This document shows, one piece after another, positions 361 to 27,602 of a stretch of 41,805 bases of DNA. The first letter of the stretch is position 1; each line of letters begins with the position of its first letter. The stretch is from positions 1-41,805 of the IMG/VR virus record IMGVR_UViG_3300036886_000512. One strand, 5' to 3'. The translations under genes were made by a program, and so were the position numbers. This stretch comes from a virus. The notes beneath the pieces were generated by a model that saw nothing but the letters and a program-made list of their open reading frames with translations, did not search any database and was not told where the DNA came from.

Positions 361-851
361 GGGCGTGCCTCGGCAGATAGGTATCGGATCGGCTTGCCCC
401 AAAGCGCCGCATAGGCAATCTCGCTCCGCATGGACTCGCCGATGTAGCCGCCGACATCGAGCACGAGGATCTCGTCGGCCAAGTCAATCTTTCGTTTATG
501 AAGATCATCGAGGGCAAGCTTCTGCTCAGGTGTGCAGCCCACTTCCTCACCGTGGGCTTCCTTCTGAGAGTGAGGGAAGAAGCCAACCGAAAGGACGATG
601 CGCCCCGCCATCGTCTCGCGGTAGTAAGCGCACATGAATTCGTCGAAGAATCGGGTTGAGCCGCATAGGCACACGACCTTCGGGGCTGTATCCCGCTTCG
701 CGCGGCGAGCTGAACGTGCGGCCTCGCGTCGGCTGGTATGCACGGAAGACTTCATCGAACCGCCATAGGCACCCCTACATGGCACCCCGATGGTTGCTCC
801 GCAAGCCGTGCAGGGCACAAGGTTGACGACGATGGCGATGTAATTCTTCAC
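357..851 (-). CDS. Zinc-module / nucleoside 2-deoxyribosyltransferase-like fusion
   Basis: GTG at 851 overlaps the TGA of the preceding gene and has GTGAGG just upstream, so I prefer it to the longer ATG frame. The 164-aa product has an N-terminal module CTACGATIGVPC followed by a basic helix with H, the pattern of a small phage zinc module (about residues 13-50). A Rossmann-like C-terminal domain follows (about 58-160) with VVCLCGSTRFFDEF, a KIDLADEILVLDVGGYIG segment and an S-x-x-x-E-I-x-Y-A helix. These are hallmarks of the nucleoside 2-deoxyribosyltransferase/DUF4406-like superfamily, which cleaves N-glycosidic bonds of (deoxy)nucleosides or nucleotides. The substrate is unknown; a role in phage nucleotide or base metabolism is inference. 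Confidence 0.75.
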   Translation of the reverse strand: MKNYIAIVVNLVPCTACGATIGVPCRGAYGGSMKSSVHTSRREAARSARRAKRDTAPKVVCLCGSTRFFDEFMCAYYRETMAGRIVLSVGFFPHSQKEAHGEEVGCTPEQKLALDDLHKRKIDLADEILVLDVGGYIGESMRSEIAYAALWGKPIRYLSAEARP

Positions 852-1597
852 GCCCTCACCTCGATCTCTTCCCCAACCTCGCACTCGACGGGCTGGCGGC
901 TGCGATCGCGCCGGCTGATCTCGTCTATCGTTCTCTTAGTTCCGTACGACGGAAACAGCGCGCCCTTGAACCAGGCCTGGTCAACGCGGCGCAAGTCGTA
1001 TTCTTCCGGGTGCAGCTTGATGAAGCGGACCAGCTCGAAGTGGCGGATGCGTGAATACTGGCCGTCAAATGCCGTGCTATCGCGCAGCCATCCGTGATTG
1101 ATCCAGCGCGCCACTGACTGCACATTCACGCCGAGTAGTTCGGCGGCATCGACGCGCGAATAAGTGTCGGAAGCGCGCATCGAGATGCCGATCTGGTACG
1201 CCTTCAGCTTGACGCTGCCCGGGCTGCGCCCCAGCTTGCGGGCAATCTTGGCGACGCTCCAGTGGCCGGCCTGCTCGCGCAGCAGCAAGACTTCCTCGGT
1301 CTTCCAGAACATCCATCGTTGCGCCGTGATGCCCAGTACCTGGGCGCGCCGATTGACGGCCCAGCGCGGGAAACCGGTGCGGCGCATGACGTCACTGACG
1401 CCAACGCCGAGTTCCGAGCGCGAGCGCGCGCCACGATAGACCCCGCGCAGCAGTTCGTCGAGCATCGGTGTCCAGTGGAATTTCGAAGGCGCGATTTTCG
1501 ATTTAATGTCGCATGCCGGGCACAGCCGGGAGCGGGGCCGCGCCTTCAGCTCGTGACAGACGCGGCATTCGACCGGGTTGCTGGGAATTCCACGCAT
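848..1597 (-). CDS. Putative zinc and helix-turn-helix DNA-binding protein
   Basis: 249 aa. The N-terminus carries CRVCHELK followed by CPAC, a four-Cys putative zinc site. The middle contains a Myb/SANT-like region starting FHWTPMLDELLRGVY and a second helical region with WSVAKIARKLGRSPGSVKLKA, a clear helix-turn-helix. A third HTH-like segment (AAELLGVNVQSVARWI) follows. A multi-HTH DNA-binding protein, perhaps a late-gene activator in the way Mu C or Mor ends the Mu early phase, but there is no recognisable similarity to those proteins. The ATG lies 3 nt after the stop of the upstream 35-aa gene, within the early operon. Confidence 0.7.
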   Translation of the reverse strand: MRGIPSNPVECRVCHELKARPRSRLCPACDIKSKIAPSKFHWTPMLDELLRGVYRGARSRSELGVGVSDVMRRTGFPRWAVNRRAQVLGITAQRWMFWKTEEVLLLREQAGHWSVAKIARKLGRSPGSVKLKAYQIGISMRASDTYSRVDAAELLGVNVQSVARWINHGWLRDSTAFDGQYSRIRHFELVRFIKLHPEEYDLRRVDQAWFKGALFPSYGTKRTIDEISRRDRSRQPVECEVGEEIEVRA

Positions 1598-2842: not shown

Positions 2843-2870
2843 AGTTGCCAGTTGCTAGTTGCCAGTTGCC
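2843..2870. repeat. Tandem heptamer repeat locus 1
   Basis: Four perfectly phased 7-mers on the plus strand: AGTTGCC, AGTTGCT, AGTTGCC, AGTTGCC (minus strand GGCAACT type). The array overlaps the last codons and stop of the gene ending at 2855 and fills the space to the next ATG at 2833. Related arrays occur at 3240, 12334 and 25115. Confidence 0.85.
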
Positions 2871-3795: not shown

Positions 3796-3995
3796 TCCGC
3801 CTGGCTCTCCATCTCCGCCGCGGCCTGCTTTGCCGCCGTGGCGAACACGGCGACATGGCTGCCCGCTTCACACGCGCCGTGCTCGCCGCCCATGTGAGAA
3901 GCCCGGAAGGCGCCGATCATGAAGAAGGCCAGCGGCTCGGGCAGCTTGCCCACCAGGAAGGCTCCGCAGCGGCAACGCTCGTCTATGTGCTGCAT
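3792..3995 (-). CDS. Small hypothetical protein
   Basis: 67 aa from the ATG at 3995, which overlaps the upstream gene end by 13 nt. The frame is open much further but that extension lies over the real upstream gene. The N-terminus reads MQHIDERCRCGAFLVGK (two close Cys), and a further Cys and His residues are scattered downstream (HMGGEHGACEAGSH). This could be a degenerate zinc site. No function assigned. Confidence 0.5.
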   Translation of the reverse strand: MQHIDERCRCGAFLVGKLPEPLAFFMIGAFRASHMGGEHGACEAGSHVAVFATAAKQAAAEMESQAE

Positions 3996-4321
3996 GGCAG
4001 CCCTCCCACCAGCACGTTCCCGGCGGCCTCCGCCTTTGCGCCTGCCGGGTTTGCAGCCGGACGAAATCCCATCTGCCGCTCGGTTGAGAACAGCGTTCCG
4101 CAGCGCGGGCAGAAGGTGGGCTCGAAGTCGATGTGGAAGTCGAACTCGCACTCGGAGCAGCGATAGGCGTGCACCGGCCCGGCGATTCGTGAAGCCGGCA
4201 GCGTGTAATGCTTGATTCGCGCCGCGCCCTCGCCCCGCAATTCTGCCGCCGCGATCACCGGATGAACGATGTTGTGGATTGGACATTTAAGTACGCTGTT
4301 GCGATAGCCGCATAGCTCCAT
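3983..4321 (-). CDS. Zinc-ribbon hypothetical protein
   Basis: 112 aa from the ATG at 4321 (TGATG overlap with the upstream stop). A convincing four-Cys ribbon near residues 68-88 reads CSECEFDFHIDFEPTFCPRC, with further Cys and His near the N-terminus (CPIHNIVH). Such ribbons usually bind nucleic acid or stabilise small proteins. Part of the early operon; role unknown. Confidence 0.6.
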   Translation of the reverse strand: MELCGYRNSVLKCPIHNIVHPVIAAAELRGEGAARIKHYTLPASRIAGPVHAYRCSECEFDFHIDFEPTFCPRCGTLFSTERQMGFRPAANPAGAKAEAAGNVLVGGLPCST

Positions 4322-4548
4322 CACTTCACCTCGGTCCATCTCAATAGCGCCATCGCCTTGAGCAGTCTTCGGTAATCGGCCGCGTTCTTCATTACCTTCC
4401 GCCAGCGCCGTGCACTGACTTGGCAGCGCAGCGGATCGAGCGTTTGCGCCAGCGATTCGTTCATCGCGATGCCCTCGCGCAGGGCGCGCCGCGCAATGCA
4501 CCCCTGCCGCACCGACAAGCGCCCCCCCCCCGGCAATTTTCTGGCCAT
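4321..4548 (-). CDS. Small basic hypothetical protein with a homopolymer near its start
   Basis: 75 aa from ATG 4548; rich in Arg/Lys with a helical C-terminus (MKNAADYRRLLKAMALLRW). A run of ten G on the coding strand (C at 4522-4531) sits about ten codons in. A second ATG at 4552 overlaps the upstream stop as TGATG, the coupling usual in this operon, but lies in another frame that would need a slip in the G tract to enter this one. The exact N-terminus is therefore uncertain. Confidence 0.5.
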   Translation of the reverse strand: MARKLPGGGRLSVRQGCIARRALREGIAMNESLAQTLDPLRCQVSARRWRKVMKNAADYRRLLKAMALLRWTEVK

Positions 4549-4551
4549 CCA

Positions 4552-5061
4552 TCACGCTCTCGCTTTCTGCGGCTGCTTCGCCTTCTTCGCGTTGCGCTCG
4601 TTCACCTTCAGCGACGGCTTCTTGGGCGACGTCTTCACCACCGCGGCGAACATCGGTTCCAGCCACTTGCGCGTACGCGCCGGGAGCTTGGCGATCGCGG
4701 AAGCAGCATCCGGGCGCGGCGTGTAGGTCAGCTTCAAGTCGAAGAGAGGGCGGACCAGATGGGGATTGGAATCCAGCCGGTCGACGATCTCCGCGATCGC
4801 GTCCTGGTCGTAGCTGGTGGAAATTCCGAAGCTGGCGTCCACGTCGTACACGGCGCCCGCCAGTCGGAACGTTTTCTCCGCGCCCGGCGGGGTGATGCCG
4901 TGCTGCCGGCACATCTCGACCAGGTCATCCTTCTGCGCGTCCAGCTCCGATTCCTTCGCCTCGATCGCCGCGGTGAGTTTGTTGTAGGCCTTGGCGCGGG
5001 TGTCCACCTGCGCCGCCGTTGGTTTGTCGAACTTCTTCACTTTCGCTGCTGCTGCACTCAT
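4552..5061 (-). CDS. Possible Gam-like early protein
   Basis: 169 aa. The N-terminal 50 residues form a charged coiled coil (AKAYNKLTAAIEAKESELDAQKDDL). A beta-containing middle follows (KTFRLAGAVYDVDASFG), then an acidic helix and a lysine-rich tail. Size, helical N-terminus, operon position and the strand after the coiled coil resemble Mu Gam-type host-nuclease inhibitors that bind DNA ends, but sequence identity to Mu Gam is not visible to me. Treat Gam as a hypothesis. The ATG overlaps the stop of the small membrane gene upstream (ATGA). Confidence 0.5.
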   Translation of the reverse strand: MSAAAAKVKKFDKPTAAQVDTRAKAYNKLTAAIEAKESELDAQKDDLVEMCRQHGITPPGAEKTFRLAGAVYDVDASFGISTSYDQDAIAEIVDRLDSNPHLVRPLFDLKLTYTPRPDAASAIAKLPARTRKWLEPMFAAVVKTSPKKPSLKVNERNAKKAKQPQKARA

Positions 5062-5171
5062 GATTGCCTCCTCCTGGAATCCAACGTCCTGTCATGCGGC
5101 TCGGTCGCGCCCAGCCAGGCCAGCGCGCAAAAACTGACGCCGCCCGCAAAGCCGAGCAAAAGCATCATCAT
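5058..5171 (-). CDS. Small membrane peptide, 37 aa
   Basis: Begins with three ATG codons in a row at 5171, the first overlapping the upstream TGA (ATGA). Sequence MMMLLLGFAGGVSFCALAWL forms one hydrophobic helix, followed by a charged tail ending RRRQS. It fills the gap between two certain genes with 4-nt overlaps at both ends. Function unknown. Confidence 0.6.
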   Translation of the reverse strand: MMMLLLGFAGGVSFCALAWLGATEPHDRTLDSRRRQS

Positions 5172-5497
5172 TGCCCGCTCCTCTCGGCTGGCTCCGAGCG
5201 CACCATCGGCGGATCGAAAGTTCCCGTCTCCGCCCAGCGCGAGGCCAGCTTCAGCATGCAACCCTCGCCGCAGGCCACCGCGGCGCCTTCGAAGTAAGCC
5301 AGGTCGCGGTGCCACGGGTGCACCTTCAACGCGTTCGCGCCGGCGGCGTTGCGCAGGTTCGATTCCTGGAAGAGCACGAACCAGTCGTTGGTCTCCTGCT
5401 TCTGCTTGCGGCAGAGCGAGCAGATGAACGGGCGGAAAGCCTCGTCCACCATGGTGACCACTTCACCGACCACGGATTCGTGCCGCTCGCTGATCAT
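5168..5497 (-). CDS. Cys-containing hypothetical protein
   Basis: 109 aa from the ATG at 5497 (TGATG overlap). It has CSLC near residue 27 and CGEGC near residue 76, with a His pair (HPWH) between, compatible with a split zinc site. Otherwise mixed alpha/beta. No family recognised. Confidence 0.6.
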   Translation of the reverse strand: MISERHESVVGEVVTMVDEAFRPFICSLCRKQKQETNDWFVLFQESNLRNAAGANALKVHPWHRDLAYFEGAAVACGEGCMLKLASRWAETGTFDPPMVRSEPAERSGQ

Positions 5498-5733
5498 CAG
5501 CGGACCTCCGAGGGGATGTACCATCGCCCGTCGCGACGGCGGCCGACGCGCCCGTTCATTTCCAGATACATAAGCGCGAGCTGAACTTCGAGCATCGTGC
5601 AGGCGCCGTGACCGGCCAGCCGCTCGTCGAGTTGCTCGTCCAACTTCCGTCCCACCCAAATCGCGAAGAAATAGTTTTGGGCGAAGGCACGCGCGACCCA
5701 CTCGACTTCGCAGATGAAACGGCCCGGCGTCAT
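5497..5733 (-). CDS. Small hypothetical protein, possible winged helix
   Basis: 78 aa. Two helices (VEWVARAFAQNYFFAIWVG and MLEVQLALMYLEM) precede a GRVGRRRDGRWYI segment that looks like the wing of a small winged-helix fold. Start overlaps the upstream stop (ATGA at 5730-5733). No function assigned. Confidence 0.55.
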   Translation of the reverse strand: MTPGRFICEVEWVARAFAQNYFFAIWVGRKLDEQLDERLAGHGACTMLEVQLALMYLEMNGRVGRRRDGRWYIPSEVR

Positions 5734-5981
5734 CGCGCCTGCTTCCTCCGCGCCGCCTGGCGCTGCATCGGCGTGGCCAACGAACGCGCCGGACGAATGC
5801 CGCGGGCAATCATTTCGTCACATACCGCCTGCACCTTTGCTCGCTCGGAAGCGCACAGCTTGTCGCCGCCGCTGTGCTGCACGCCGGTGACCTGCTCGAC
5901 GTCCTGCGCGAGTGACCACGAAAGCGGACGGCCCTTGGCGGCGTCCAGCAGCCGCTTCAGTTGTTTCGATTGCTCGCTCAC
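5730..5981 (-). CDS. Small helical hypothetical protein
   Basis: 83 aa from a GTG at 5981 overlapping the upstream TGA (GTGA); the frame is open further upstream but that part covers the membrane gene. Predicted helices include KQLKRLLDAAKG and ERAKVQAVCDEMIARG, with a basic tail (QRQAARRKQAR). No recognised family. Confidence 0.55.
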   Translation of the reverse strand: MSEQSKQLKRLLDAAKGRPLSWSLAQDVEQVTGVQHSGGDKLCASERAKVQAVCDEMIARGIRPARSLATPMQRQAARRKQAR

Positions 5982-6205
5982 CGAGTCACCATCCACTTCC
6001 AGCGGTCGTAATTCAGCGCCGCCCTCAGCAGCGCCTGGACGATTACGCCGGTGGCAATGCCGATCAGCCACCAGCAGGCGCGCGTCGCCCAGCGGTCGAG
6101 CTGCTCGGTGCGCGTGCGCTTGCCCTCGCGGATCCGCCGCACCAGGTATTCGCGATCGGCTTCGCGCCGGATGACGCGCTCTAAAATCTGTCCGCCGGTG
6201 CTCAT
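5978..6205 (-). CDS. Small single-pass membrane protein
   Basis: 75 aa from the ATG at 6205, which overlaps the upstream stop (ATGA); an in-frame ATG at 6232 is less likely. A charged N-terminal helix (ERVIRREADREYLVRRIREG) is followed by one transmembrane segment (ACWWLIGIATGVIVQALL) and a short tail. Probably inner-membrane; role unknown. Confidence 0.6.
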   Translation of the reverse strand: MSTGGQILERVIRREADREYLVRRIREGKRTRTEQLDRWATRACWWLIGIATGVIVQALLRAALNYDRWKWMVTR

Positions 6206-6600
6206 GCTGCGGCCTTCCTTTCTTCCAGACACTGGCGCGCCGCCGCGTAGTTTTCCAAGTAGCCGTTGAACATCGAGGCGTAGAGCCCACTCCGTACCTT
6301 GGGAGGCAGCAGCTCGTAGCAGCGGAAGCAGAAGGTCTGCATCTCGCGCTTGCGCTTGCCGCAGCAGCAGTGATCGGCCTTCAGCTCGGCGAGCACCGCG
6401 CGCACGACGTGGCCGTGCCGGTCATTGCAGGCGGCGGCTTTGCAGCGCGTGTGCTCCTGGTCGAGGAAGAAGCTCTGGATGCCATCGCCCACGCCGCGGC
6501 AATATCGGCAGCGTTCCTGGCGCGGCTCGAAGCAGGTTGCGAGCAGCTCGGCGAGCATTTCGCCGTGAATGGTCAGCGGAGCGTGTATGAGCAGCGTCAT
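6202..6600 (-). CDS. Cys-rich zinc-binding hypothetical protein
   Basis: 132 aa with at least ten Cys. The N-terminal cluster is CRYCRGVGDG followed by HTRCKAAAC. The C-terminal cluster is HCCCGKRKREMQTFCFRCYELL. The second cluster ends in an amphipathic helix, as in small phage zinc proteins. ATGA overlaps at both ends. No function can be assigned beyond probable metal binding. Confidence 0.65.
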   Translation of the reverse strand: MTLLIHAPLTIHGEMLAELLATCFEPRQERCRYCRGVGDGIQSFFLDQEHTRCKAAACNDRHGHVVRAVLAELKADHCCCGKRKREMQTFCFRCYELLPPKVRSGLYASMFNGYLENYAAARQCLEERKAAA

Positions 6601-7085
6601 GGATGCACCGCCTCAACCTGCTCGGGCAGAACGCACGCTTCAATCGGCGCGAGCGCGTCCCAGGTCCAGATTCCTAGCGCGCCGCGCGCGGGGACGGGGT
6701 TGATCTCGGCGATTTCATCGAAGATGAAACCGAAACGGCCGTCGTCGTAATTGCCGAACTCCAACTCGTGCGGGGTCACAGCGAAAAACCGCGGCGCCTT
6801 CTCGCGAATCTTCGCGGTCGGCCAGCAGTCGATGAGAGTCGTGATGCAGAGCATCTGCCCGCGGGGGAGATCGCTAGCGCCGAGGCCTCGCGCGCGAAGC
6901 ACGCTGCGGAATGGCTCGGTGTCGCAAAGGTCCCGACACCAGGTGGGAAAATCCTTCGCGGCGTGGATGGCGATGGGGCCGCGGTACCGCGTCGGCCAGG
7001 AGCGCGTCTCGATGCGCTTGGCGCCGATGGCGACCAGCGTTGCCCAGGGCTGCGTGAGAGAGATCGCTTTCCAGGTCGAGTTCAT
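6597..7085 (-). CDS. ASCH-domain protein
   Basis: 162 aa from the ATG at 7085 (ATGA overlap). The N-terminus has the ASCH hallmark: AISLTQPWATLVAIGAKRIETRSW, then YRGPIAIHAAK, a short beta-barrel core and a closing strand GIWTWD. ASCH domains belong to the PUA-like fold and bind RNA or modified nucleobases; some members hydrolyse modified nucleosides such as N4-acetylcytidine. In phages their role is mostly unknown. Its place in the early operon suggests action on nucleic acid or nucleotides during take-over; this is inference. Confidence 0.85.
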   Translation of the reverse strand: MNSTWKAISLTQPWATLVAIGAKRIETRSWPTRYRGPIAIHAAKDFPTWCRDLCDTEPFRSVLRARGLGASDLPRGQMLCITTLIDCWPTAKIREKAPRFFAVTPHELEFGNYDDGRFGFIFDEIAEINPVPARGALGIWTWDALAPIEACVLPEQVEAVHP

Positions 7086-11071: not shown

Positions 11072-11086
11072 AGGTTTAGATGTCAA
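11058..11086 (-). promoter_or_regulatory. Leftward early promoter
   Basis: On the minus strand TTGACA (11086-11081) is separated by 17 nt from TAAAGT (11063-11058), a good -35 with a moderate -10. The start point would be near 11051, about 6 nt before the ATG at 11045. The -35 overlaps the first codons of the repressor gene and the -10 lies inside the 15-bp palindrome. Confidence 0.65.
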
Positions 11087-11838
11087 GAGAAAAACGCGGG
11101 GCACCTTTTCCGCCGGCGCTACCAGCGTTTGCGGAGGCCATAGTCGCCCTCCGTGAAGCCCGCAAGTGGGGCCGCGCTCAGCTCGCCCGCGAACTGGGCG
11201 TCACTGAGATGACGGTTTCAAATTGGGAGAGCGGGAAGTCCGAGCCGAAGCCAGACAAGTACGCACGGATGGCGCGCCTGGCACCGACCGATGACCTTGA
11301 GATTTTCTTTCGCGACCGCATCGTAGCCCTCGATCCCCAGGTCGCGAGCCTCATCAGCGCCTACGCTCAAAAGCACGACATCATCCCAAAGGTTAGTCAG
11401 CCCGTCGGCGACCTACCTGAAATGTCTGCCGTTCCGTTGCTCAGGGACGCCGCTGCTGCGGGCGCTCCACGCATGATCGAAGAGAAAGACGTTGAAGAAT
11501 GGCTGATGATTTCAAAACGCTTTGCGCCGAACCCAGAGTCCGTCCGGTGCGTTCGAATCAAAGGCGATTCGATGAGCCCCATTCTCGAAGAGGGCTACAT
11601 CGTCGCGATCGACACGGCGGACCGCGAGCCCAAGCGCCTGGTAAAACATATGGTCGCAGCCTCTGACCCGGATGGAGGCGTGACGATCAAATGGTTACGC
11701 AAGAGCGCCGGTGAACTCTTGCTGGTGCCGCAGCACGTCAGCGTCCGTTACTATCCGGTCATCCTGACAAAAGAAGCGGGCTGGCGTATTGTAGGTCGCG
11801 TGATGTGGTGGATTGGCCAACCGCCGCCACCGAAGTGA
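11080..11838 (+). CDS. Phage repressor, HTH plus LexA-type S24 peptidase
   Basis: 252 aa. N-terminal HTH (about residues 18-66, AQLARELGVTEMTVSNWESG). The C-terminal S24 domain has the catalytic serine S164 in IKGDSMSPIL and probable lysine K204 in VTIKWL. An AAAAGAP stretch around A127-G128 matches the Ala-Gly self-cleavage site of LexA/CI proteins. Such repressors maintain lysogeny and cleave themselves when RecA filaments form, giving SOS induction. This differs from Mu, whose repressor lacks S24. GAGG lies 5 nt before the ATG. Divergent from the early operon it should control. Confidence 0.93.
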   Translation: MSREKRGAPFPPALPAFAEAIVALREARKWGRAQLARELGVTEMTVSNWESGKSEPKPDKYARMARLAPTDDLEIFFRDRIVALDPQVASLISAYAQKHDIIPKVSQPVGDLPEMSAVPLLRDAAAAGAPRMIEEKDVEEWLMISKRFAPNPESVRCVRIKGDSMSPILEEGYIVAIDTADREPKRLVKHMVAASDPDGGVTIKWLRKSAGELLLVPQHVSVRYYPVILTKEAGWRIVGRVMWWIGQPPPPK

Positions 11839-11854
11839 TTCCCTAGGTGATGAA

Positions 11855-12247
11855 ATGCTTAAAGGTTCCCGGGTTTTGGCCGTTGCCATCGTGCTCCTCG
11901 CTCTCGCTTCATCTTGTTTCGGGGCGTCGAAGAAAGCCACCTTCGCCGGCGACGTTGATTCCGTCTTCGATGCTGCGGTGCGCGCCGCACGCTTGAACTG
12001 GACAGTCGGCGCAGTTGACAGGAAGACGGGGACGCTCAGCTTTTCCGCGGGAATGTCACTGACCTCGAATGGCATCGACTGCAGTGTCACCGTCGAAGCC
12101 ATCGAGCCTGGTACCGTTCAAGTCACACTTATCCCACACAAGAAGGCGCAACTGTTCGCGTGGGACGTTGGCAAGCGAATCGCCGACAAATTTTTCGCCT
12201 CCGTGCAGAGCGAGCTCGACAAACAGAAAACCGCAAAGCTTCCTTAG
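11855..12247 (+). CDS. Small exported protein, possible lysogenic-conversion gene
   Basis: 130 aa from ATG 11855 (AGGTGA upstream); the frame is open earlier but the ATG gives a clean Sec signal peptide, LAVAIVLLALASSCFGA, with cleavage likely near residue 24. The mature part is a compact alpha/beta domain (an ATFAGDVDSVFDAAVRAA helix, then strands) of about 105 residues. It lies 17 bp after the repressor and ends just before a terminator, so it is likely expressed in the lysogen. A role in surface change or superinfection exclusion is a guess from position. Confidence 0.7.
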   Translation: MLKGSRVLAVAIVLLALASSCFGASKKATFAGDVDSVFDAAVRAARLNWTVGAVDRKTGTLSFSAGMSLTSNGIDCSVTVEAIEPGTVQVTLIPHKKAQLFAWDVGKRIADKFFASVQSELDKQKTAKLP

Positions 12248-12263: not shown

Positions 12264-12286
12264 GCCCCGGCTGCGGCCGGGGCTTT
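12264..12286 (+). terminator. Rho-independent terminator after the repressor unit
   Basis: A perfect 8-bp GC stem (GCCCCGGC, loop TGCG, GCCGGGGC) is followed by TTT. It lies 17 nt after the stop of the exported protein gene and separates lysogeny genes from the late region. Confidence 0.8.
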
Positions 12287-12292: not shown

Positions 12293-12310
12293 ATGTAACA
12301 TAAGTTACAT
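12293..12310. repeat. Inverted repeat ATGTAAC-ATAA-GTTACAT
   Basis: A perfect 7-bp inverted repeat with a 4-bp AT spacer, seven bases after the terminator, in otherwise GC-rich DNA. It could be a protein-binding site or part of a late promoter region. No second copy was seen. Confidence 0.6.
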
Positions 12311-12333
12311 CCCTCCGCGCCCCCGCCCTTCCT

Positions 12334-12361
12334 GACAACTGACAACTCGCAACCGACAACT
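12334..12361. repeat. Tandem heptamer repeat locus 3
   Basis: Four phased 7-mers GACAACT, GACAACT, CGCAACC, GACAACT in the intergenic space before the exported cassette. Same family as the arrays at 2843, 3240 and 25115. The array ends 9 bp before the 30-bp direct repeat. Confidence 0.85.
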
Positions 12362-12370: not shown

Positions 12371-12400
12371 CAAACTCCAAAAACTACGCAAAGCACGCAC
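12371..12400 (+). repeat. 30-bp direct repeat, left copy (flanks exported cassette)
   Basis: This stretch, beginning CAAACTCCAAAAACTACGCA, matches 17246-17275 at 28 of 30 positions in the same orientation. The two copies lie just outside the first and last genes of the three-gene exported cassette. It could be a recombination boundary, a shared regulatory element or a dispersed host repeat. Confidence 0.8.
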
Positions 12401-12434
12401 CGCTTTTGCCCCGGCCACGCCATCATCAAGCGTC

Positions 12435-14273
12435 ATGACACGCAAACTCTTCGCCCCACTCTGTCTCCTGGTCCTGCTGTTGGCGGCCGCCGGCGCGCAC
12501 GCCCAAAACGCCTGGCTCGCCTGGCGCGGTGATTGGAAGGCGTCCGCTAATTACGGCGCCGCCGATGTTGCCCTCCACGGCGATATCCTCTACCTCGGAT
12601 TGGAGAACAGCTCCGGCCTGGTCCCGGCGCTGCATCCGGCGGAGTGGAGCGTGCTCGCCGAGGCGAAGGCCGCCACGCCGGCCGCCGGACATCTTGCCTA
12701 TGCCGGCACGTACGCCGGCGGGACCGCCTATATCGCCAACGACGTCGTCGTCTCTTCGGTGAATCTCTACGTCGCCCTGGGCGCGACGACCGGCAACGCG
12801 CCCTCCAGCTCGCCCACCAAGTGGGCGCTGCTCGCCGGTCCCAACGTGATCTTGAATCCCACCCGCTTCTTCCAGTGGCAGGGAGCGTGGGCGGCGCCGG
12901 TGCCTTACCTGGCGGGCGTTGGGGTGAGCTATGAAGGCGATGTCTGGAAAGCGCTGACCGGAAGTTTCGGCGTGACCCCGGTGGAAGGTACGGTGTGGAC
13001 GAAGATCGCCGGCGCGTCCGCCACCTTGCTGCCGCGTCCGACGCGCACGGCGATCGGTGGCGCCTACGCCGCGGCCGCCTGCCCAGGCGGACAGCACGTC
13101 GACGACCTGGATCCTGCCACCGGCGCCCTGCATTGCTCCGCCGACACGGCGACGCCTCCGGGCGGGGTCTCGGGAGATCTCCAGAAGAACAACGGAAGCG
13201 GCGGATTAGCTGCGGCCTCGGCGGGAAGCGATTACCTGGCGCCCACCGGCAACGGCTCAGGACTCACCAGCGTGGATGCGGCAACGCTGCAATCGCATGC
13301 CGCGAGTTATTTCCAGCCGGCGCTCGGCTACACGCCGCTGGCCCCGGCGAATGCGCTGAGTGAATTGACCGGTGCCGCTTCCACGGCGCGCTCAAACATC
13401 AGCGCGCAACTGGACCTCGGGGCGCTGACCAAGAAAGGCACGGGCACGGCGCTGCCTGGCTGCACCTTCACCACTGAAGCTGCCGGCGATCGCTTGCAGT
13501 GGGACGGAACGAAGTGCGTCAACGCCGAACCGGGCATCGCCTACAACGCCGACGCCACGGCCAACCTCGCCATCCTCGCCGCCAACAAGGGGAAATTGCT
13601 GACGCGCACCAACGCCGCGATGGCCGACACGATCGCGCAGGCAGGGACGGGCGCGTTCGATTCGTTGTTCTACTTCTTCGATAAGAACATCGACGCGACG
13701 CATGCACAGGCCATCACGCCGGCGACGAGCACCGTCAACGGCGCGGCCTCGGTTACGGTCCTGCCTACAGGTGGCGGAATGTGGACGGGTGATGGAGCAG
13801 CCTACAACTTCCAATACTTCATGCCCGCCGATCCGGCAACCGGGAAACTCGCCCACGCCGCGCTGCCTACGCTCGCGACCGGCGACATGACCACCGCCGT
13901 CAATACGCGCACGGTCACCGTGACGCTGGATTCTCCGGTCACTGGCGACAGCGGGCATGTGATTGTGCTCAACCCGGCGACCGCCATCCACATCACGCGC
14001 GCCTTCTGCTCGGTGTATGCGGCGACGAACGTGGTGGTTAACCTGGACAAGCGGGCGGAGGGAACTTACGCGACCGATAGCGGCGCGCACCTGCTCGGCT
14101 CGGATCTGACGGCCGTAACCGGCGGCGCGAATACGTCGACGTTCTCCAACACGCCGTGCGGCGGGACGTCGAGCTGCGCGGTGGCGGCGCACACGCCCGT
14201 CGTGCTCACGATCACGTCTGTTTCAGGAACGCCGGCCTCGCTGGGCTGCTCCGTCGACTACACGGTGGACTAA
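12435..14273 (+). CDS. Exported tail-fibre-like protein with CBM-like repeats
   Basis: 612 aa with a strong Sec signal peptide (cleavage near AHA-Q, residue 23). Three repeats of about 45 residues follow (about 30-75, 89-133, 148-192), each with an aromatic start, a central GD/ND or Y-I-A-N segment and a closing W. This is the pattern of small chitin/cellulose-binding modules (CBM5/12-like). After them comes a phage tail-fibre style region (GGLAAASAGSDYLAPTGNGSG) and a beta-rich C-terminal half with paired Cys near the end. Probably a carbohydrate-binding fibre or spike, but the signal peptide means it would enter the periplasm or leave the cell. No good ribosome site is visible. Confidence 0.7.
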   Translation: MTRKLFAPLCLLVLLLAAAGAHAQNAWLAWRGDWKASANYGAADVALHGDILYLGLENSSGLVPALHPAEWSVLAEAKAATPAAGHLAYAGTYAGGTAYIANDVVVSSVNLYVALGATTGNAPSSSPTKWALLAGPNVILNPTRFFQWQGAWAAPVPYLAGVGVSYEGDVWKALTGSFGVTPVEGTVWTKIAGASATLLPRPTRTAIGGAYAAAACPGGQHVDDLDPATGALHCSADTATPPGGVSGDLQKNNGSGGLAAASAGSDYLAPTGNGSGLTSVDAATLQSHAASYFQPALGYTPLAPANALSELTGAASTARSNISAQLDLGALTKKGTGTALPGCTFTTEAAGDRLQWDGTKCVNAEPGIAYNADATANLAILAANKGKLLTRTNAAMADTIAQAGTGAFDSLFYFFDKNIDATHAQAITPATSTVNGAASVTVLPTGGGMWTGDGAAYNFQYFMPADPATGKLAHAALPTLATGDMTTAVNTRTVTVTLDSPVTGDSGHVIVLNPATAIHITRAFCSVYAATNVVVNLDKRAEGTYATDSGAHLLGSDLTAVTGGANTSTFSNTPCGGTSSCAVAAHTPVVLTITSVSGTPASLGCSVDYTVD

Positions 14274-14275
14274 AG

Positions 14276-15007
14276 ATGAAACCTTTTCTCGCGATTTGCC
14301 TGATCGTCAGCACGGCGCTGCTGCTTTGCGGCATCGCACCGCCGCAGGCTGTGGTGGTGAAACATAAATCTTCCGCCGCCGCCCCGACCAAGGTACAGGT
14401 CACGCCGACAACCTGCACAGCGTTCAACACGACGCTCAATTGTGTGTTTGGCAGTAACGTCACCAGCGGCAACGACATTCTCGTAGCTGTGAGGTGGGGG
14501 CTTGACACTGACACCGTCTCATTAACCGTCTGTGGCGGAAGCCCGACTTCGGTAGTAGGGCCGACGGGCTTTGTCGGTCAAGGCGCAGCAATGCAAGTGT
14601 GGAAATATCACGTTACCTCGACGGCTGCCTGCACGATCACTCCCACAAAATCCGGGGGCAATTCTCGACTCAGTGTCGTAGCTGTGGAATTCACTGCCGG
14701 CACCGTTGACCAAAACAGCGTAATCGCCAATCAGCTTGTGCCCGGCACTGGCACTGACGCAATCACCACGGCGACAATCACCCCGACGGTCGCCAACTCT
14801 TACGCGGTGACGTTTGTTGACAATGCTTCGCAGTCCTCGGCCACCTTTACTGCTGGGACAAATTGGGCGAAGCAACTGGCCGTGACCAGCGATATGTTGA
14901 TGCTGGAAGCACGGACACTATCGAGCACCAGCGCGGTCGCTGGGACTGCAACCTGGGGCAGCGGGACAGGCAGCACCCAGGCAGTTGTGGTGAATGTAAA
15001 ACCATGA
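14276..15007 (+). CDS. Exported beta-rich protein
   Basis: 243 aa from ATG 14276, 2 nt after the previous stop. A signal peptide (FLAICLIVSTALLLCGIA) precedes a Thr/Ser/Val-rich beta-sandwich-like body with three Cys pairs, suggesting disulphide formation outside the cytoplasm. Repeated T-x-T and V-V-A-V-E-F strands look Ig-like; no catalytic motif. It is co-oriented and tightly spaced with its neighbours, ending in an ATGA overlap with the next gene. Function unknown; probably a surface or virion-associated partner of the adjacent exported proteins. Confidence 0.65.
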   Translation: MKPFLAICLIVSTALLLCGIAPPQAVVVKHKSSAAAPTKVQVTPTTCTAFNTTLNCVFGSNVTSGNDILVAVRWGLDTDTVSLTVCGGSPTSVVGPTGFVGQGAAMQVWKYHVTSTAACTITPTKSGGNSRLSVVAVEFTAGTVDQNSVIANQLVPGTGTDAITTATITPTVANSYAVTFVDNASQSSATFTAGTNWAKQLAVTSDMLMLEARTLSSTSAVAGTATWGSGTGSTQAVVVNVKP

Positions 15008-17235
15008 AACGAGTGCTACCAATTCTCGCGCTGCTGTTCTTATGTGGTCAGGCGTGGGCGGCCTGTTCCGATGCAGCAACGATCACCGTGGGCAGCGGGA
15101 AAGATTGCGCCACGATTCAGGCAGCAGCGAACGTCGTCACGGCAGGGCATACGGTCGTAGTTTACGCGGGGACCTACGCCGAATACGTCGTCCCGCCCAC
15201 CAGCGGCACGGTGGGCAACCCGATCACCTTCAAGGTAAACGCGGGCGACACGGTCAACGTCAACGGCTTCAACCTATCGAACCTCTCCTACGTCACGGTG
15301 GGCGGAAGCGGGACGACCGAAGGCTTCGTCGTCTGCTCGACCTACACGGCCAATTACTGCTTCAACGTGACCAAGGGAAGCCACCTCACCGTCCAGCGCA
15401 ACACCATCGGCGGAACGTCCAGCGGCGGGGGTGGGACGGATGCGTGCGTGTTCAACAGCAGCACCACGGCAAACGATTCCAGCTACACCTCGGTCCTGAA
15501 CAACACCCTGGCCTGGTGCGGACCATACGGTGGCGTTGTAGCGGGGAAAAAGAACGGCGCTGCCCCGATCGAGTTGCGCGGAAATCACTGGCGCGTGGAA
15601 GGCAACACGGCGAGCCACGTTTCTGAGTTCGCTTCCAACGTCGCCGGCGACCACCACGTTGTGCGCAACAACATCTGGCGAGACACGGACTGCGCAGCGG
15701 ATTTCGGGACGGACGATAGCGGCGCCGGGAACCTTTGCCACATGGACGCCTTGGAAGTTGACTGCGCGGGCGTCAACACCTTGCCCCGCTACATTCTGTT
15801 TGAAGGCAACCAGATCATCAATGTGCAGGCCACGCCGACCGGGTCGAACACGCGGGGCCGCGGGGTGCACGGTTTCCTCGCCAACGCGGAAACCTGCACC
15901 GGTATCACTAACTTCATTTATCGCTTCAACTACGCCTCCAACCCGCTGTTCGGCCAGCTTATCTTGAGTAGCAGTCCCACCGCACTGTTCGATCACATTG
16001 CCGAGTACAACAACACGGCCGACACGATGGGGCAGGAGAACGCCTATGCGAATGCCTACGTAGGCGGAGCGAGCGCCGGGGCCACCAACGCCCGCAGCAA
16101 GAACTCCCTCTATCGAAACGCGACGAGAACGACGGGCTCGATCAACGGCATCTACACCGATGCGAACACAAATCCCACCTTCATCGGGGCGAACGACCTA
16201 TTCTTCAACACCAGCGGGAGCACGTTTTCTGCCAGCACCATCTGTGTTCTGAACTCATTGACGAAATGCACCGGGTTTATCTTGAACCAAGATCCGTTGC
16301 TTTCCGGCAGTAACTTGTTGGCGGGTTCCCCGGCGATCAAGGCGGGCACGTCGCTGACCACGGTAGCAGCGGGCGACACCGGCTCGGGCACCTCGCTGAT
16401 CGTAAACGATGCAACCTTCTTTCAGGATGGGTTGGGCGTTACGGGAGTCTCGGCGGACGGCATCTGCGCGGGCACGACGCTGGCGGGCGCCAGTTGCGTG
16501 ATGACCACGGCGGTCAATTACGCCACGAACACGCTGACCCTGGCCTCGGGGATCTCGCGCAGTAACGCCGACGGCGTGTGGCTGTGGAAGAAGTCGGATA
16601 GCGCGATCGTGGCCACGACCGCTCACGCGCCAAACATCGGGTCGGCGCTGCCTCCGACTGCATCGCTCTCCGCATCGAGCATCGCCTTTGCGGACCAGGC
16701 CGTGGGGAGCACGTCGGCTCCGTCCTCGATCACGCTTACCAACACGGGCGGAAGTCCGCTAACGATTACCAACGTGGCCCTGACTACGGGAACAATGTTC
16801 ACTCTTACGTCCGCGACTTCGGGCACGGTTGCCCCGGGTGCCACCTTCACGATCTCGGTGACCTTCACCCCGGCCAGCAACATCCTCTACAACGACACGG
16901 TGACCGTGACCAGTGATTCGACTGCGGCCACGAGTTTCACGGTAAGCGGGACCGGCACCGGAGCACCCACCGTGACCTGCTCGATCGCCAGCAACTTTGG
17001 CTCGATCGTGCCCGGCCAGAGCGCCACGCTCACCATCACGACAGCGAACGCGGACATCGGTTGCACGCTTTCGACCGATGGCGGAACCCCGGCCAGCGTG
17101 ACCTGCAACGGAACCGTGAGCAAGAGCCCGGCTACCGGAAGCCACACTCACGCCCTGGTGGCCAGAGGGGCGACGGGAACGTGCGGCGGCAATGCGGCTT
17201 TCAGCGTGACGGTGCCGCCGGCCAGCGTGTTCTAG
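15004..17235 (+). CDS. Exported beta-helix protein with ASH-type C-terminal domain
   Basis: 743 aa. Signal peptide MKRVLPILALLFLCGQAWA, then a right-handed parallel beta-helix (about residues 30-520). It opens with the familiar ATIQAAANVVTAGHTVVVYAG pattern and has many N-rich turns, as in pectate-lyase-like and phage tailspike folds. From about 550 to 655 lies an ASH/Hydin-type domain (SIAFADQAVGSTSAPSSITL, a TNTGGSPLTIT turn, VSGTGTG). A last beta domain follows. Beta-helices often bind or cleave polysaccharide; no active site was identified. Last gene of the cassette. Could be a tailspike or a lysogen surface protein. Confidence 0.75.
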   Translation: MKRVLPILALLFLCGQAWAACSDAATITVGSGKDCATIQAAANVVTAGHTVVVYAGTYAEYVVPPTSGTVGNPITFKVNAGDTVNVNGFNLSNLSYVTVGGSGTTEGFVVCSTYTANYCFNVTKGSHLTVQRNTIGGTSSGGGGTDACVFNSSTTANDSSYTSVLNNTLAWCGPYGGVVAGKKNGAAPIELRGNHWRVEGNTASHVSEFASNVAGDHHVVRNNIWRDTDCAADFGTDDSGAGNLCHMDALEVDCAGVNTLPRYILFEGNQIINVQATPTGSNTRGRGVHGFLANAETCTGITNFIYRFNYASNPLFGQLILSSSPTALFDHIAEYNNTADTMGQENAYANAYVGGASAGATNARSKNSLYRNATRTTGSINGIYTDANTNPTFIGANDLFFNTSGSTFSASTICVLNSLTKCTGFILNQDPLLSGSNLLAGSPAIKAGTSLTTVAAGDTGSGTSLIVNDATFFQDGLGVTGVSADGICAGTTLAGASCVMTTAVNYATNTLTLASGISRSNADGVWLWKKSDSAIVATTAHAPNIGSALPPTASLSASSIAFADQAVGSTSAPSSITLTNTGGSPLTITNVALTTGTMFTLTSATSGTVAPGATFTISVTFTPASNILYNDTVTVTSDSTAATSFTVSGTGTGAPTVTCSIASNFGSIVPGQSATLTITTANADIGCTLSTDGGTPASVTCNGTVSKSPATGSHTHALVARGATGTCGGNAAFSVTVPPASVF

Positions 17236-17245
17236 CGCGCAATCG

Positions 17246-17275
17246 CAAACTCCGAAAACTACGCAAAACACGCAC
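17246..17275 (+). repeat. 30-bp direct repeat, right copy
   Basis: Second copy of the 12371-12400 repeat (28/30 identical, differing at bases 9 and 23). It begins 10 bp after the stop of the beta-helix gene, so the pair frames the cassette exactly. Confidence 0.8.
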
Positions 17276-17328
17276 GCCTTTCTCGCGAGTCACCCTACAG
17301 TCGAAGCTACAGACGAAGCGGCGCACGG

Positions 17329-17376
17329 ATCCGGCGGCGGGCCATCCTCACCCCACGCTAGACACCGCCGCCGGAT
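17329..17376 (+). terminator. GC-rich hairpin before the endolysin gene
   Basis: A perfect 12-bp inverted repeat, ATCCGGCGGCGG (17329-17340) and CCGCCGCCGGAT (17365-17376), with a 24-nt loop and TT directly after. It may end transcription of the exported cassette or control entry into the lysis module. The weak T tract makes terminator function uncertain. Confidence 0.5.
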
Positions 17377-17393
17377 TTGAAATCGAAGACCGA

Positions 17394-17873
17394 ATGACCA
17401 AGGCCGACAAGATCGCGTGGCTTGATTCGATGAAGGCATTCGCCCAGGCCGAGCAGCGCAACACCGGCATTCCGGCCTCGGTCGTGCTTGCCCAAGCTTT
17501 CTGCGAGTCGGCCGACAAGCTCGGCAACCCCGGCCAGTGCGTCATCGCCCGCGAGTGCAACAATTATTTCGGTATCAAGCTCGGCCGCGCCACCGCCCCC
17601 TATCGCCAGTACTGCACCGCGAAGGACGCCAGCCCGAAGAACAAGTTCCGCGTCTTCAAGTGCGTCGCCGATTCGTTTGCCTTCCACGCGCGCCTGCTCT
17701 CCACCGATCCGCGCTACGCGCCGGCCATGGAAGCGGTGCACGATCCGCTCGCCTTCGCCGCCCAGCTCCAGATCTGCGGCTACTCGGAAAATCCGCAGTA
17801 CGCCTCGAAGCTGCTGGGCCCGATCATTCGCGAATACCACCTCGAAGATTTCGATTTGAAGGAGGGCGTATGA
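17394..17873 (+). CDS. Glucosaminidase-type endolysin
   Basis: 159 aa from ATG 17394 (the frame is open upstream through intergenic DNA). The sequence IPASVVLAQAFCESADKLG with the E near residue 36, then NNYFGIK, F-R-V-F-K and Y..NPQYASKL, is the glucosaminidase/FlgJ-type lysozyme superfamily signature, where the Glu in QA.CES is the likely catalytic residue. The enzyme would cut peptidoglycan glycan strands at lysis. It has no signal peptide, so a holin would be needed. Its stop overlaps the lipoprotein start (ATGA), forming a lysis module. Confidence 0.9.
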   Translation: MTKADKIAWLDSMKAFAQAEQRNTGIPASVVLAQAFCESADKLGNPGQCVIARECNNYFGIKLGRATAPYRQYCTAKDASPKNKFRVFKCVADSFAFHARLLSTDPRYAPAMEAVHDPLAFAAQLQICGYSENPQYASKLLGPIIREYHLEDFDLKEGV

Positions 17874-18751
17874 AACGCGCCATCGCACTCGCACTTTGCC
17901 TCATGCTCACCGTCGCCTGCTCGGAGAGCGATTACCACAAGGCCGCCAACGCTTCCGCCAAGATCGCCAGCGGCCTGGCCGCGATCGAGCAGATCAACGA
18001 AAATTCGTACCACGCTGGTCTGCTCAGTAAGGAAGAGAGCGTCGCCATCGCCGGCTACACCATCGAGGCGACGCGCGCCAACGATGTATTTGTCGGCCGC
18101 ATCAAGTCGCTGGGCTCGATCGATACCTCGAACCGGGCGCTCGTCGTCGGCTGGTTCGGCGACGTGGCCGCTTCCATCCAGTTGCTCAACGAGCAGGGCG
18201 TGCTTCACGTCAAGAACCCCGACACGAAAGCCAAACTCGCCATCGCCGTCACCGCCGTTCAGGCTTCCGTCCAAATCATCCAGGCGCTGCTCGGCATGAC
18301 AGCGCAACCATCACCGCGCGCGGGAATTTTACAGTCCGCGCAGAGAGGAACTTATGGACCCGATGTTGATTTTGCAACTCGCCCTCGCCAGCGTATCTGC
18401 CGGCATGAAGCTGGTCGCCGAGATCAAGGCGCAACAGCAGATGTCCGACCAGCAGCTCTTGGACTTCGCGACCCAGTCCGACGCGCAGACGCGCGCTGCG
18501 GCGGTGGCGTTTATCGCCAGCGTCCAGGCATAAAGGTCTTCGCGCCGCTTTCGTTGTTTGCGTCGTTTCCGGACTCTGCAAATTTGCGCCGCGTCCGGTT
18601 GGCGGATGAGTTAGCCGTAAAGGGGGGTATCAGGGGCATCGGGCTGTCCGGATGGCCCCTACGGTCGTTTCCAGCACCTCCGGGCGCTCCTACCCCCTGC
18701 GTGAAACTTCACACAGGGGTATCTGGTGGGTCCGGCGACCTGCGTTCTTGA
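17870..18751 (+). CDS. Lipoprotein-like protein, C-terminal part doubtful
   Basis: ATG 17870 overlaps the endolysin stop and has a strong AAGGAGGG site. The first 145 residues look real: a signal with a TVAC lipobox-like site at C18, then an Ala-rich helical domain (AANASAKIASGLAAIEQI). After about residue 146 the frame runs on for another 147 codons through a second gene (18354-18533) and structured intergenic DNA. That part reads as Arg/Pro/Gly-rich non-coding sequence. A nearby frameshift or lost stop is likely; the real protein may end near 18310-18370. Possibly an outer-membrane lysis accessory (spanin-like) from position. Confidence 0.5.
   Translation: MKRAIALALCLMLTVACSESDYHKAANASAKIASGLAAIEQINENSYHAGLLSKEESVAIAGYTIEATRANDVFVGRIKSLGSIDTSNRALVVGWFGDVAASIQLLNEQGVLHVKNPDTKAKLAIAVTAVQASVQIIQALLGMTAQPSPRAGILQSAQRGTYGPDVDFATRPRQRICRHEAGRRDQGATADVRPAALGLRDPVRRADARCGGGVYRQRPGIKVFAPLSLFASFPDSANLRRVRLADELAVKGGIRGIGLSGWPLRSFPAPPGAPTPCVKLHTGVSGGSGDLRS
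18354..18533 (+). CDS. Small helical protein of the lysis region, 59 aa
   Basis: ATG 18354 with AGAGGA upstream, stop TAA at 18531. The sequence begins MDPMLILQLALASVSAGMKL and continues as one long Ala/Gln-rich helix ending AAAVAFIASVQA. It lies in a different frame from the doubtful tail of the lipoprotein ORF. No family known; the first 20 residues could insert in a membrane. Confidence 0.6.
   Translation: MDPMLILQLALASVSAGMKLVAEIKAQQQMSDQQLLDFATQSDAQTRAAAVAFIASVQA
18619..18721 (+). ncRNA. Structured intergenic element (candidate RNA or attenuator)
   Basis: The space between the 59-aa gene and the zinc-ribbon gene holds stacked inverted repeats. AGGGGCATC pairs with GATGGCCCCT with one bulge (about 18630-18660). 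TACCCCCTGCGTGAA (18691-18705) pairs with TTCACACAGGGGTA (18708-18721) with one bulge and one mismatch. GGGGGGTA near 18619 could also pair with TACCCCC at 18691. No T tract follows. The alternative pairings suggest an RNA switch or attenuator, though a repeat element of the host is equally possible. Confidence 0.4.
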
Positions 18752-25100: not shown

Positions 25101-27602
25101 ATGAAACGAGTTCTGATGACTGGCAATCGGCAACTGGCAACTGCTCTCGTCCGCGAAGCCATGATGATGACCGCCGCGCCCGAGATGTCGTTCGACGACA
25201 TTCAGTCGCGCATCTATGCCGCGCTGCGGCTGAAGTTCGGAGTCGACAGCGCCGTCTATTGCGTCGACACCTTCCCCACCTACGTCATCATTCGCCAGGC
25301 TGATGGCGCGCTCTATCGCTTGGACTATGCCTGGGGTGACCGCGACGGCGACGGCCAGACCGACGACATCATCTTCAGCGGAGATCCGCAGGAAGTGGAA
25401 GAAGCGTACATCCCGGTCAGCCAGGCCGCGACCTTCATCGCCGAAGAAGCCGGCTCGAAGCCGGATCCGTGGAAGTTCCCGGTGCAAATTATGAAGCCGG
25501 GCATCGCGCACGGTGAGATCGTCCAAGACGGCAAGCGCATCCCGCTGCCGCACAACTTCGGCCCCGGCGTGGTTGCCGAGGTGGCGCAAGCCGCAAACAC
25601 CGCGCGCTTCGGACGTCGCCATCCCGCCAGCGGATTGGGCGAAGACGACCCCGAGCGCACCGCCGGCTGGTTCGATCACGGCCGCGTCGTCGGCGATTGC
25701 GCCACCGCTGACCTGAACCTCTTCAAATCCGAAACCGCCATGCAGGCGCGCCTGAACGCCGCGCGCGAAGCCGGACAGCTCGGCCAGTTCGGCCTCTCCA
25801 TCCTCGGCATCTTCGCATTCCGCGCCGCGAAGATCGAAGGGCGCGATGCGCTCGATGCAGTCAAGCTGGTGAAACTCGCCAGCATCGATCTGTGCGCCGA
25901 GCCCGGCGCCGGCGGTGGCTTTCTGGAAGCCATGCGCGTCGCCGCCTCGCGCGCCACGTTCTCGCAAATTTCTGATCTGCAATCGAAGGCAGTCAAACAG
26001 TCTTCCGCAACCGGCGGACTTAACGAAGGCGGTGCACGTAGCGCCAGCCCTCACGGAGGAACAGCAATGAAGGAACGTATTCTGAAGGCAATCGAGGCGC
26101 TACGGAAGTCCAACGCCGCACGCGCCACGGAACTCACCACCCAACTCACCGCCGCCGCCGAGGACGCCGGCAAGCAGAGCGAAGTACTCGCCCTGGTCGC
26201 CGAGGCGCTCACCGGCGTCGTCAGCATCGGAGCTGCGGCCGCGCAAACCGCGGGCGAAGACGTTGTCGCGCAGGCCAAGGAAGCCCTCAAGCAGGCTCAG
26301 CGCATCCAGGCCGACAACCGGCTGGAAACCAAGCTCGCCACTTCGAAGCTGCCCGTGCCGGCGCTCGCGATCATTCGTGAGTCGGCGAAGGAAGCCTTCG
26401 ACGATGGCCGGCTCTGGGACGATGCCAAAGTCGACGCCAAGATCGCCAGCGTCCGCGAATCGTTCGCGGCCTTCACCACGGCGCGCGTGCACTCCGGCAT
26501 CGAAGTCGGGCGCGACTCGGAAGAGAAGCTCCAGCTCGCCATGAACAAGATGCTGGGCGTCCGTGAAGCGATGGCCGATGCGACGGTGCACGCCTTCCGC
26601 GGCCTCAAGGACGCGTACGTCACCCTCACCGGCGATCGCAACCTCGCGTTCGGAGTGGGCGGCCACGGCGGCTTCCTGGCCAAGGAAGCGACGGTCGTGA
26701 CCGGCGACTTTCCCAACATCCTGCTCAACTCGATGACCAAGAAGCTGCTCCAGGACTACCGCGAACCGCAGTACGCCTGGGTCGACAACCTGGTCAGCGT
26801 GGTCGACATCAACGACTTCAAGTCGCAGGACCGCGTGCGCATGGGTTACCTGGCTGACCTGGCGACCGTGGCCGAGGATGGACCCTACACCGACTTCGTG
26901 GTGCCGACCGACGAGAAGATCAGCTACGTGGCCACCAAGCGCGGCAACGTGCTGCCCATCTCGCGCGAGACCATCCTCAACGACGACCTGAACAAGATCG
27001 CGCAATTCCCGGCGCGCATCAGTCGTGCGGCACGCCGCACTTACGCCAAGTTCGTGCTCGGCTTCTTCGTCAACAGCCCGAACTTCGACGCCGACGCCAC
27101 CGCCTGGTTCCACGCCAACCACGCCAACCTGGGCGCCGCCGCCCTCACCATCGACGAGTTGGTGCTGCGCGAGATCGCCCTGCGTACCCAGACCGAGAAG
27201 GATTCGGCCGAGCCGCTCGACTTGACCCTCGACTGGATCATGGTGCCGGTGCAACTGGCCGCGCAGGCCTTCCGCATCAACAGCGCGCAGTTCGTCAACC
27301 CCGGCGTCGGGATCCAGGTGCCGAACCCGTTCTGGCAGCGCTTCGGCGCGAACGGCGAGCGTATTTACCAGAGCGCCCTGCTCGTCGACGCCAACGACTG
27401 GTATTACGGGACCAGCCCGGCCAACGCGCCCTTCCTGGAAGTCGGCTTCGTCCAGGGACAGCGCGAGCCGCAGATGTTCCTGCAGAACGATCCCACGGTG
27501 GGCGCGGTCTTCACCAACGACCGCATCACCTACAAGGTCCGCCACGAATACGGTGGCGACATCATGGATTACCGCGGCGTCGGCAAGAACGTCGTCGCCT
27601 AG
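25101..27602 (+). CDS. Prohead protease / major capsid fusion protein
   Basis: 833 aa from ATG 25101. Residues 1-110 hold a small beta domain (VYCVDTFPTYVIIRQADGALYR). From about 130 to 290 lies a prohead-protease-like domain with GWFDHGR (H about 194), FGLSI (S233) and SIDLCAEPGAGGG (D263) as a candidate catalytic set. A linker leads to an internal ATG at 26067 with GGAGGA upstream, then a scaffold-like helical segment and the HK97-fold capsid (to 833). Protease-capsid fusions are known in Mu-like phages. Self-cleavage after assembly is expected. A heptamer array (25115-25142) encodes part of the N-terminus. Confidence 0.88.
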   Translation: MKRVLMTGNRQLATALVREAMMMTAAPEMSFDDIQSRIYAALRLKFGVDSAVYCVDTFPTYVIIRQADGALYRLDYAWGDRDGDGQTDDIIFSGDPQEVEEAYIPVSQAATFIAEEAGSKPDPWKFPVQIMKPGIAHGEIVQDGKRIPLPHNFGPGVVAEVAQAANTARFGRRHPASGLGEDDPERTAGWFDHGRVVGDCATADLNLFKSETAMQARLNAAREAGQLGQFGLSILGIFAFRAAKIEGRDALDAVKLVKLASIDLCAEPGAGGGFLEAMRVAASRATFSQISDLQSKAVKQSSATGGLNEGGARSASPHGGTAMKERILKAIEALRKSNAARATELTTQLTAAAEDAGKQSEVLALVAEALTGVVSIGAAAAQTAGEDVVAQAKEALKQAQRIQADNRLETKLATSKLPVPALAIIRESAKEAFDDGRLWDDAKVDAKIASVRESFAAFTTARVHSGIEVGRDSEEKLQLAMNKMLGVREAMADATVHAFRGLKDAYVTLTGDRNLAFGVGGHGGFLAKEATVVTGDFPNILLNSMTKKLLQDYREPQYAWVDNLVSVVDINDFKSQDRVRMGYLADLATVAEDGPYTDFVVPTDEKISYVATKRGNVLPISRETILNDDLNKIAQFPARISRAARRTYAKFVLGFFVNSPNFDADATAWFHANHANLGAAALTIDELVLREIALRTQTEKDSAEPLDLTLDWIMVPVQLAAQAFRINSAQFVNPGVGIQVPNPFWQRFGANGERIYQSALLVDANDWYYGTSPANAPFLEVGFVQGQREPQMFLQNDPTVGAVFTNDRITYKVRHEYGGDIMDYRGVGKNVVA
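25115..25142. repeat. Tandem heptamer repeat locus 4 (inside the capsid fusion gene)
   Basis: Phased 7-mers GATGACT, GGCAATC, GGCAACT, GGCAACT starting five codons after the ATG, translated in frame as MTGNRQLATAL. Same family as the arrays at 2843, 3240 and 12334. Confidence 0.8.
26067..26069 (+). promoter_or_regulatory. Internal start in the capsid fusion gene
   Basis: ATG with GGAGGA 7 nt upstream at 26055-26060, in frame with the fusion. Translation here would give a 511-aa product (scaffold segment plus capsid, 26067-27602) without the protease. Confidence 0.6.

Follow-up and report, generated by a model that had tools for sequence, protein, structure and literature searches.

At the late promoters Plys, PI, PP and Pmom of phage Mu, the site for the activator C, a member of the Mor/C family, precedes the -35 region (PMC4461284). 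The locus described here resembles this arrangement: it belongs to a transposable phage with several putative late promoters that share upstream activator sites and have non-consensus -10 elements, the modules concerned include lysis and head gene I, and the late cargo gene mom of Mu, which has its own late promoter, offers a parallel for the cassette treated below. It differs from Mu in that its site consists of arrayed 9-bp iterons rather than a demonstrated C-type site, in its predicted leaderless starts, and in having a cassette promoter in place of Pmom and no PI copy in the window. Also unlike Mu, no Mor/C-family protein (PF08765) was found in a set of 28 relatives that included many fragments, nor among the 20 ORFs of the window that were scanned, mostly early genes. 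What appears to be new here is a set of iteron-based late promoters of the Mu-like kind, one of them a promoter that would drive an exported, replaceable, fibre-like module.

We analysed a 41,805-nt stretch of viral DNA, hereafter the window. It encodes a Mu-type DDE transposase (profile matches to phrog_310, E 3e-85, and to Mu-transpos_C), a transposition ATPase (phrog_296, E 9e-22), a CI-like repressor, a Mu gp27-like protein, a terminase, a portal and a head maturation protease, and from this combination we conclude that it is a Mu-like transposable phage, a virus of bacteria. For comparison, 80 loci carrying relatives of the terminase were taken from IMG/VR and examined gene by gene; a search of IMG/VR with the transposase returned no relatives. 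The terminase gave one distant match in 297 Acidobacteriota genomes, which did not identify the true host. The cassette under study lies, as the initial annotation had placed it, between the lysogeny unit and the lysis module, that is, between the CI-like repressor unit (11080-12247) and a glucosaminidase-type lysis gene. The features of the region, together with a candidate regulator at the left end, are as follows.

848..1597, minus strand: candidate late activator P0004 (249 aa), encoded where the early region ends on the left; it combines several HTH motifs with a T5 D5-like match
11080..11838, plus strand: CI-like repressor (HTH and S24 peptidase)
12264..12283, plus strand: terminator-like hairpin with a T run, parting the CI unit from the cassette
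12371..12406, plus strand: repeat copy 1; an activator of the cassette promoter is proposed to bind here
12372-12398, plus strand: copy 1 iterons AAACTCCAA, AAACTACGC and AAAGCACGC
12421..12426, plus strand: CATCAT, -10-like hexamer of copy 1, ending 8 nt before the ATG at 12435
12435..14273, plus strand: P1, 612 aa, CBM5/12-like and tail-fibre-like, with a signal-peptide-like N-terminus
14276..15007, plus strand: P2, 243 aa, with a signal-peptide-like N-terminus; all-beta according to a low-confidence model
15004..17235, plus strand: P3, 743 aa, with a signal-peptide-like N-terminus and, close to the C-terminus, a domain of the ASH/DUF1573 type
17246..17281, plus strand: repeat copy 2; an activator of the lysis promoter (Plys) is proposed to bind here
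17247-17273, plus strand: copy 2 iterons AAACTCCGA, AAACTACGC and AAAACACGC
17296..17301, plus strand: TACAGT, -10-like hexamer of the proposed Plys
17326..17379, plus strand: leader hairpin with a 15-bp stem and a 24-nt loop, downstream of the proposed Plys and 5′ of the lysis gene
17394..17873, plus strand: glucosaminidase-type lysis gene (PF01832, E 1e-23)
18542..18577, minus strand: third, weaker array of four 9-bp iterons, in the opposite direction, with no clear -10

A perfect palindrome, TGTAACATAAGTTACA, present as a single copy in the window, lies at 12294-12309, after the CI unit and before the cassette promoter, and the third array sits in an intergenic stretch past the lysis genes.

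The repeat flanking the cassette, described before as a 30-bp direct repeat, was confirmed: 12371-12400 and 17246-17275 are on the same strand, 4875 bp apart, and identical at 28 of 30 positions, and the extended alignment (12371-12406 with 17246-17281) retains 32 of 36. It is the top 30-mer pair of the whole window, where the runner-up reaches 25/30, and eight order-2 Markov resamplings of the window gave at most 24/30. Each copy is built of three 9-bp iterons with the consensus AAACTMCGC, the units by position in both copies being AAACTCCRA, AAACTACGC and AAARCACGC. Degenerate CAACTGGCAACTG tracts also occur at 2842-2866, 3235-3261, 12331-12355 and 25119-25143, one of them immediately 5′ of repeat copy 1, and similar short tracts of the CAGT/AGCTGA/GGGATCAG type were seen in the relatives L053, L064 and L066.

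A -10-like hexamer lies 22 bp downstream of the iterons, in identical register at both copies, and the homology between the copies continues without a gap from the 36-bp repeat to this hexamer. Both hexamers are weak, each matching TATAAT at four of six positions, and no sigma-70 type -35/-10 pair was found at either repeat copy. Because the P1 ATG lies 8 nt past its hexamer and has no Shine-Dalgarno sequence, the P1 transcript is probably leaderless. No terminator was found between the cassette and the proposed lysis promoter. A shared upstream site followed by a -10-like hexamer precedes more than one late module, with two copies in the window and, in relatives, copies at lysis and head gene I.

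At these equivalent places, six relatives carry a private repeat, one copy 5′ of lysis and one 5′ of head gene I (30/30 in L031 and L052, 29/30 in L089, 28/30 in L034, 25/30 in L068 and L073), which is phage-specific and unrelated in sequence to that of the window. In a narrow test of 15 genomes, within-genome identity exceeded 23/30 only in L034, L052 and L089 (28-30/30), while the maximum over 210 cross-genome comparisons was 23/30; in a wider test, 6 of 32 relatives had at least 25/30 within the genome, a level reached by 3 of 400 cross-genome comparisons. A co-registered nAnnnT followed both copies in seven of eight pairs, the window included, against a mean of 0.6 of eight across 20 shifted controls; L085 entered this test after its -10 had been noticed, and the count is six of seven when it is left out. 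L068 had no co-registered -10. Head gene I itself starts 6-8 nt after TAnnnT and without a Shine-Dalgarno in 15 relatives, and such leaderless starts of head gene I are a group trait (L034, L035, L037, L039, L052, L072, L073, L085 and others). A repeat copy was sought and not found 5′ of the window's own head gene I, which fits the window's subgroup, where this gene has a Shine-Dalgarno and mostly no such promoter.

We also scored the fetched DNA with a matrix made from the window's six iterons only and applied across two adjacent units. Its best match fell just 5′ of the lysis module in L018 (5860), L021 (577), L022 (2675), L027 (5844) and L025 (2430), the last of which has a second array at 2461. 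Dispersed GGCTAAAGCCCGGCCGCTACAGG repeats occur in L025 as well, at 4169, 8783, 15252 and other positions.

The slot of relative G299 (the contig of L013) holds a different three-gene cassette, encoding proteins of 1016, 232 and 481 aa, all three with signal-peptide-like N-termini and none with detectable similarity to P1-P3; the first carries a BppL_N lower-baseplate motif. The 9-bp iterons of G299 read AAATAGAAC-ATTTAGAAC-AGATGAAAC 5′ of the cassette and AAATAGAAC-AAATAGAAC-AAACTGAAC 5′ of lysis, and in each case TACAGA or TAAGGT comes after the array, 8 nt ahead of the ATG or GTG start. A single iteron type, differing from that of the window, would therefore govern both cassette and lysis in this phage, a pattern that a shared activator explains and recombination at a shared repeat does not. 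The slot of a second relative, G305, encodes exported proteins of 1295, 740 and 303 aa and has no detectable repeat, so that a cassette can occur repeat-free.

Taken with the co-registered hexamers, the private repeats of relatives and the matrix matches, the G299 arrays argue for the option, already listed in the initial annotation, that the repeats are regulatory and precede the two adjoining modules. Most likely, an activator binds the two repeats as parts of two late promoters, and cassette and lysis would be switched on together. A phage activator produced late in early transcription would bind the iterons and let host RNA polymerase fire from the non-consensus -10s. P1-P2-P3 would form their own transcription unit, probably leaderless, behind the terminator, the second promoter would drive the lysis module together with the downstream structural genes, and the exported, fibre-like, sugar-binding-type proteins of the cassette would be made together with lysis. 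Transcription is predicted to start at these two places.

The multi-HTH protein encoded at 848-1597 is a candidate for this late activator. G299, G306 and G309 have D5-like stretches at their left ends, and the G299 protein is an ortholog of it (37% identity). A search of IMG/VR with P0004 gave no relatives, and a protein of this type was not detected in most of the relatives, which often lack the left end. A broader reading, which we regard as possible but doubtful, is that throughout the clade a multi-HTH, D5-like activator reads tandem 9-bp iterons, protein and sites co-diverging between phages, and that one of the promoters makes exported fibre-type proteins at lysis; if so, exported receptor- or polysaccharide-binding proteins could mask or clear receptors for the progeny. 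The proposed late-promoter arrangement amounts to a testable code, with predicted leaderless starts and a candidate activator, for uncultured Mu-like phages apparently devoid of Mor/C activators.

The repeats might instead be recombination sites or target duplications through which the three genes were exchanged or inserted. The genes do sit neatly inside two long direct repeats, the content of the slot varies in every relative examined, and a serine recombinase-like gene lies in the slot of L010; yet the homology of the repeats runs gap-free to the -10-like hexamer, in L034, L052 and L089 different repeats occupy these promoter positions, from lysis to head gene I, with no cassette between, and P1-P3 have no recombinase next to them. 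Alternative cassettes between the same repeat copies, which this reading would call for, were not what the relatives showed, their cassettes being accompanied by other iterons (G299) or by none that we could detect (G305). We judge this explanation very unlikely, and of the earlier proposal of a swappable host-interaction module moved by recombination at the repeats, we retain the variable slot and, as plausible, the host interaction, but not the mode of movement.

As for repressor operators or an origin-type array in place of activator sites, iterons would suit a repressor as well as an activator, a CI-like repressor gene is nearby and the third array is inverted. However, the arrays stand well 5′ of the -10 and do not cover it, they are found at late modules (lysis, head, cassette) rather than in the early/CI intergenic region, and their variation between phages tracks late promoters, which makes such a role unlikely. 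We regard as highly improbable the suggestion that a dispersed, host-type intergenic repeat is present twice here by chance. One Acidobacteriota genome has a similar core, AAAGACGCAAAGCACGCA, with 29 matches, but these copies are hairpin elements of a different outline. In addition, the 29-mer was present at up to 3 mismatches in none of 297 Acidobacteriota genomes, a set that may not include the true host, exact matches to the 19-mer numbered 7 versus about 4 expected in 257 Gb (84,980 species), which is near chance, and iteron arrays lie just 5′ of lysis in five related phages. A chance match at an Acidobacteriota gene start (L007) was set aside as a coding coincidence.

P1, P2 and P3 are intact ORFs, and the start of P3 overlaps the stop of P2 by four bases. 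All three have signal-peptide-like N-termini, called by eye and with a hydropathy heuristic rather than SignalP, in agreement with their earlier description as exported-protein genes. P1 has a weak CBM5/12 match (E 0.003) and matches to tail-fibre PHROGs (best E 7e-10), in keeping with its naming as CBM/fibre-like; for P3, named beta-helix/ASH, the ASH part was recovered (ASH/DUF1573 matches, E ~1e-8), and the beta-helix was left unconfirmed because the single-sequence structure models of P2 and P3 (pLDDT 46 and 35) were too poor for structure searching. The only relative of the P1 C-terminus that was found is in G315, where it shares 47% identity with an exported collagen-repeat fibre-like protein, followed by a protein with the same ‘VVKHK’ N-terminus as P2. 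Relatives of P1 and P3 were found neither in IMG/VR by pattern nor in phage records by pattern or tblastn, and relatives of P2 were absent from 119 Acidobacteriota genomes.

The cassette recalls phage morons in its upstream terminator-like hairpin, its own proposed promoter, its variable presence and its place between conserved modules. It differs from them in that the proposed promoter is of the phage late class, so that the genes would be lytic and not lysogenic. It is also comparable to tail-fibre and receptor-binding clusters, given the P1 matches and the BppL_N motif of the G299 cassette, and some relatives carry similar genes right after the tail-tip gene; unlike such clusters, it has signal-peptide-like N-termini throughout and, in the window's subgroup, a location between regulation and lysis. 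Exported fibre-like genes lie 3′ of the tail-tip gene in G306, G316 and G317. In G316, one of them adjoins a fibre-like gene without a signal peptide, and this pairing suggests that the exported proteins seem to be additional to the virion fibres.

On sequence grounds, the cassette is best described as a replaceable, exported, fibre-like accessory module. The statement that most phages have nothing comparable at this place is too strong and does not hold for the relatives of this phage, several of which have exported fibre-like genes in the slot. From one phage to the next such proteins are replaced by others, and both the window and G299 apparently switch them on with lysis. Considering export, sugar-binding domains and the proposed co-expression with lysis, they would most likely target the host surface as the infection ends, acting on its polysaccharide or receptors, or would mask receptors for the progeny.

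Several further observations concern gene content and the lysis leader. The CI-to-lysis slot holds other cargo in L010 (4854-5666), L019 (5141-5956), L026 (1442-2224) and L052 (4923-5780), the genes, named by eye, being serine recombinase-like (L010) and DNA adenine methylase-like. A cluster of exported fibre-like genes, in reverse, occupies the far left end of L122 (G315; 240-6867, minus strand), a third location for such clusters in the clade, and two more late-region genes of the window (27676-28695 and 30020-30868), amid head and tail genes, have signal-peptide-like N-termini. An Rfam search gave no match, and the lysis leader of relatives was absent from Rfam in the loci scanned. This leader upstream of the lysis gene is conserved in L017 (5440-5530), L042 (5196-5286), L089 (943-1033) and ~16 other relatives, where it apparently begins right after the -10 and forms a hairpin with AAAGGA(GG) in or near the loop, with compensatory stems (CCGCGA/TCGCGG, CCGCCA/TGGCGG, TCCGCAA/TTGCGGA) followed by GCCAGAGC.
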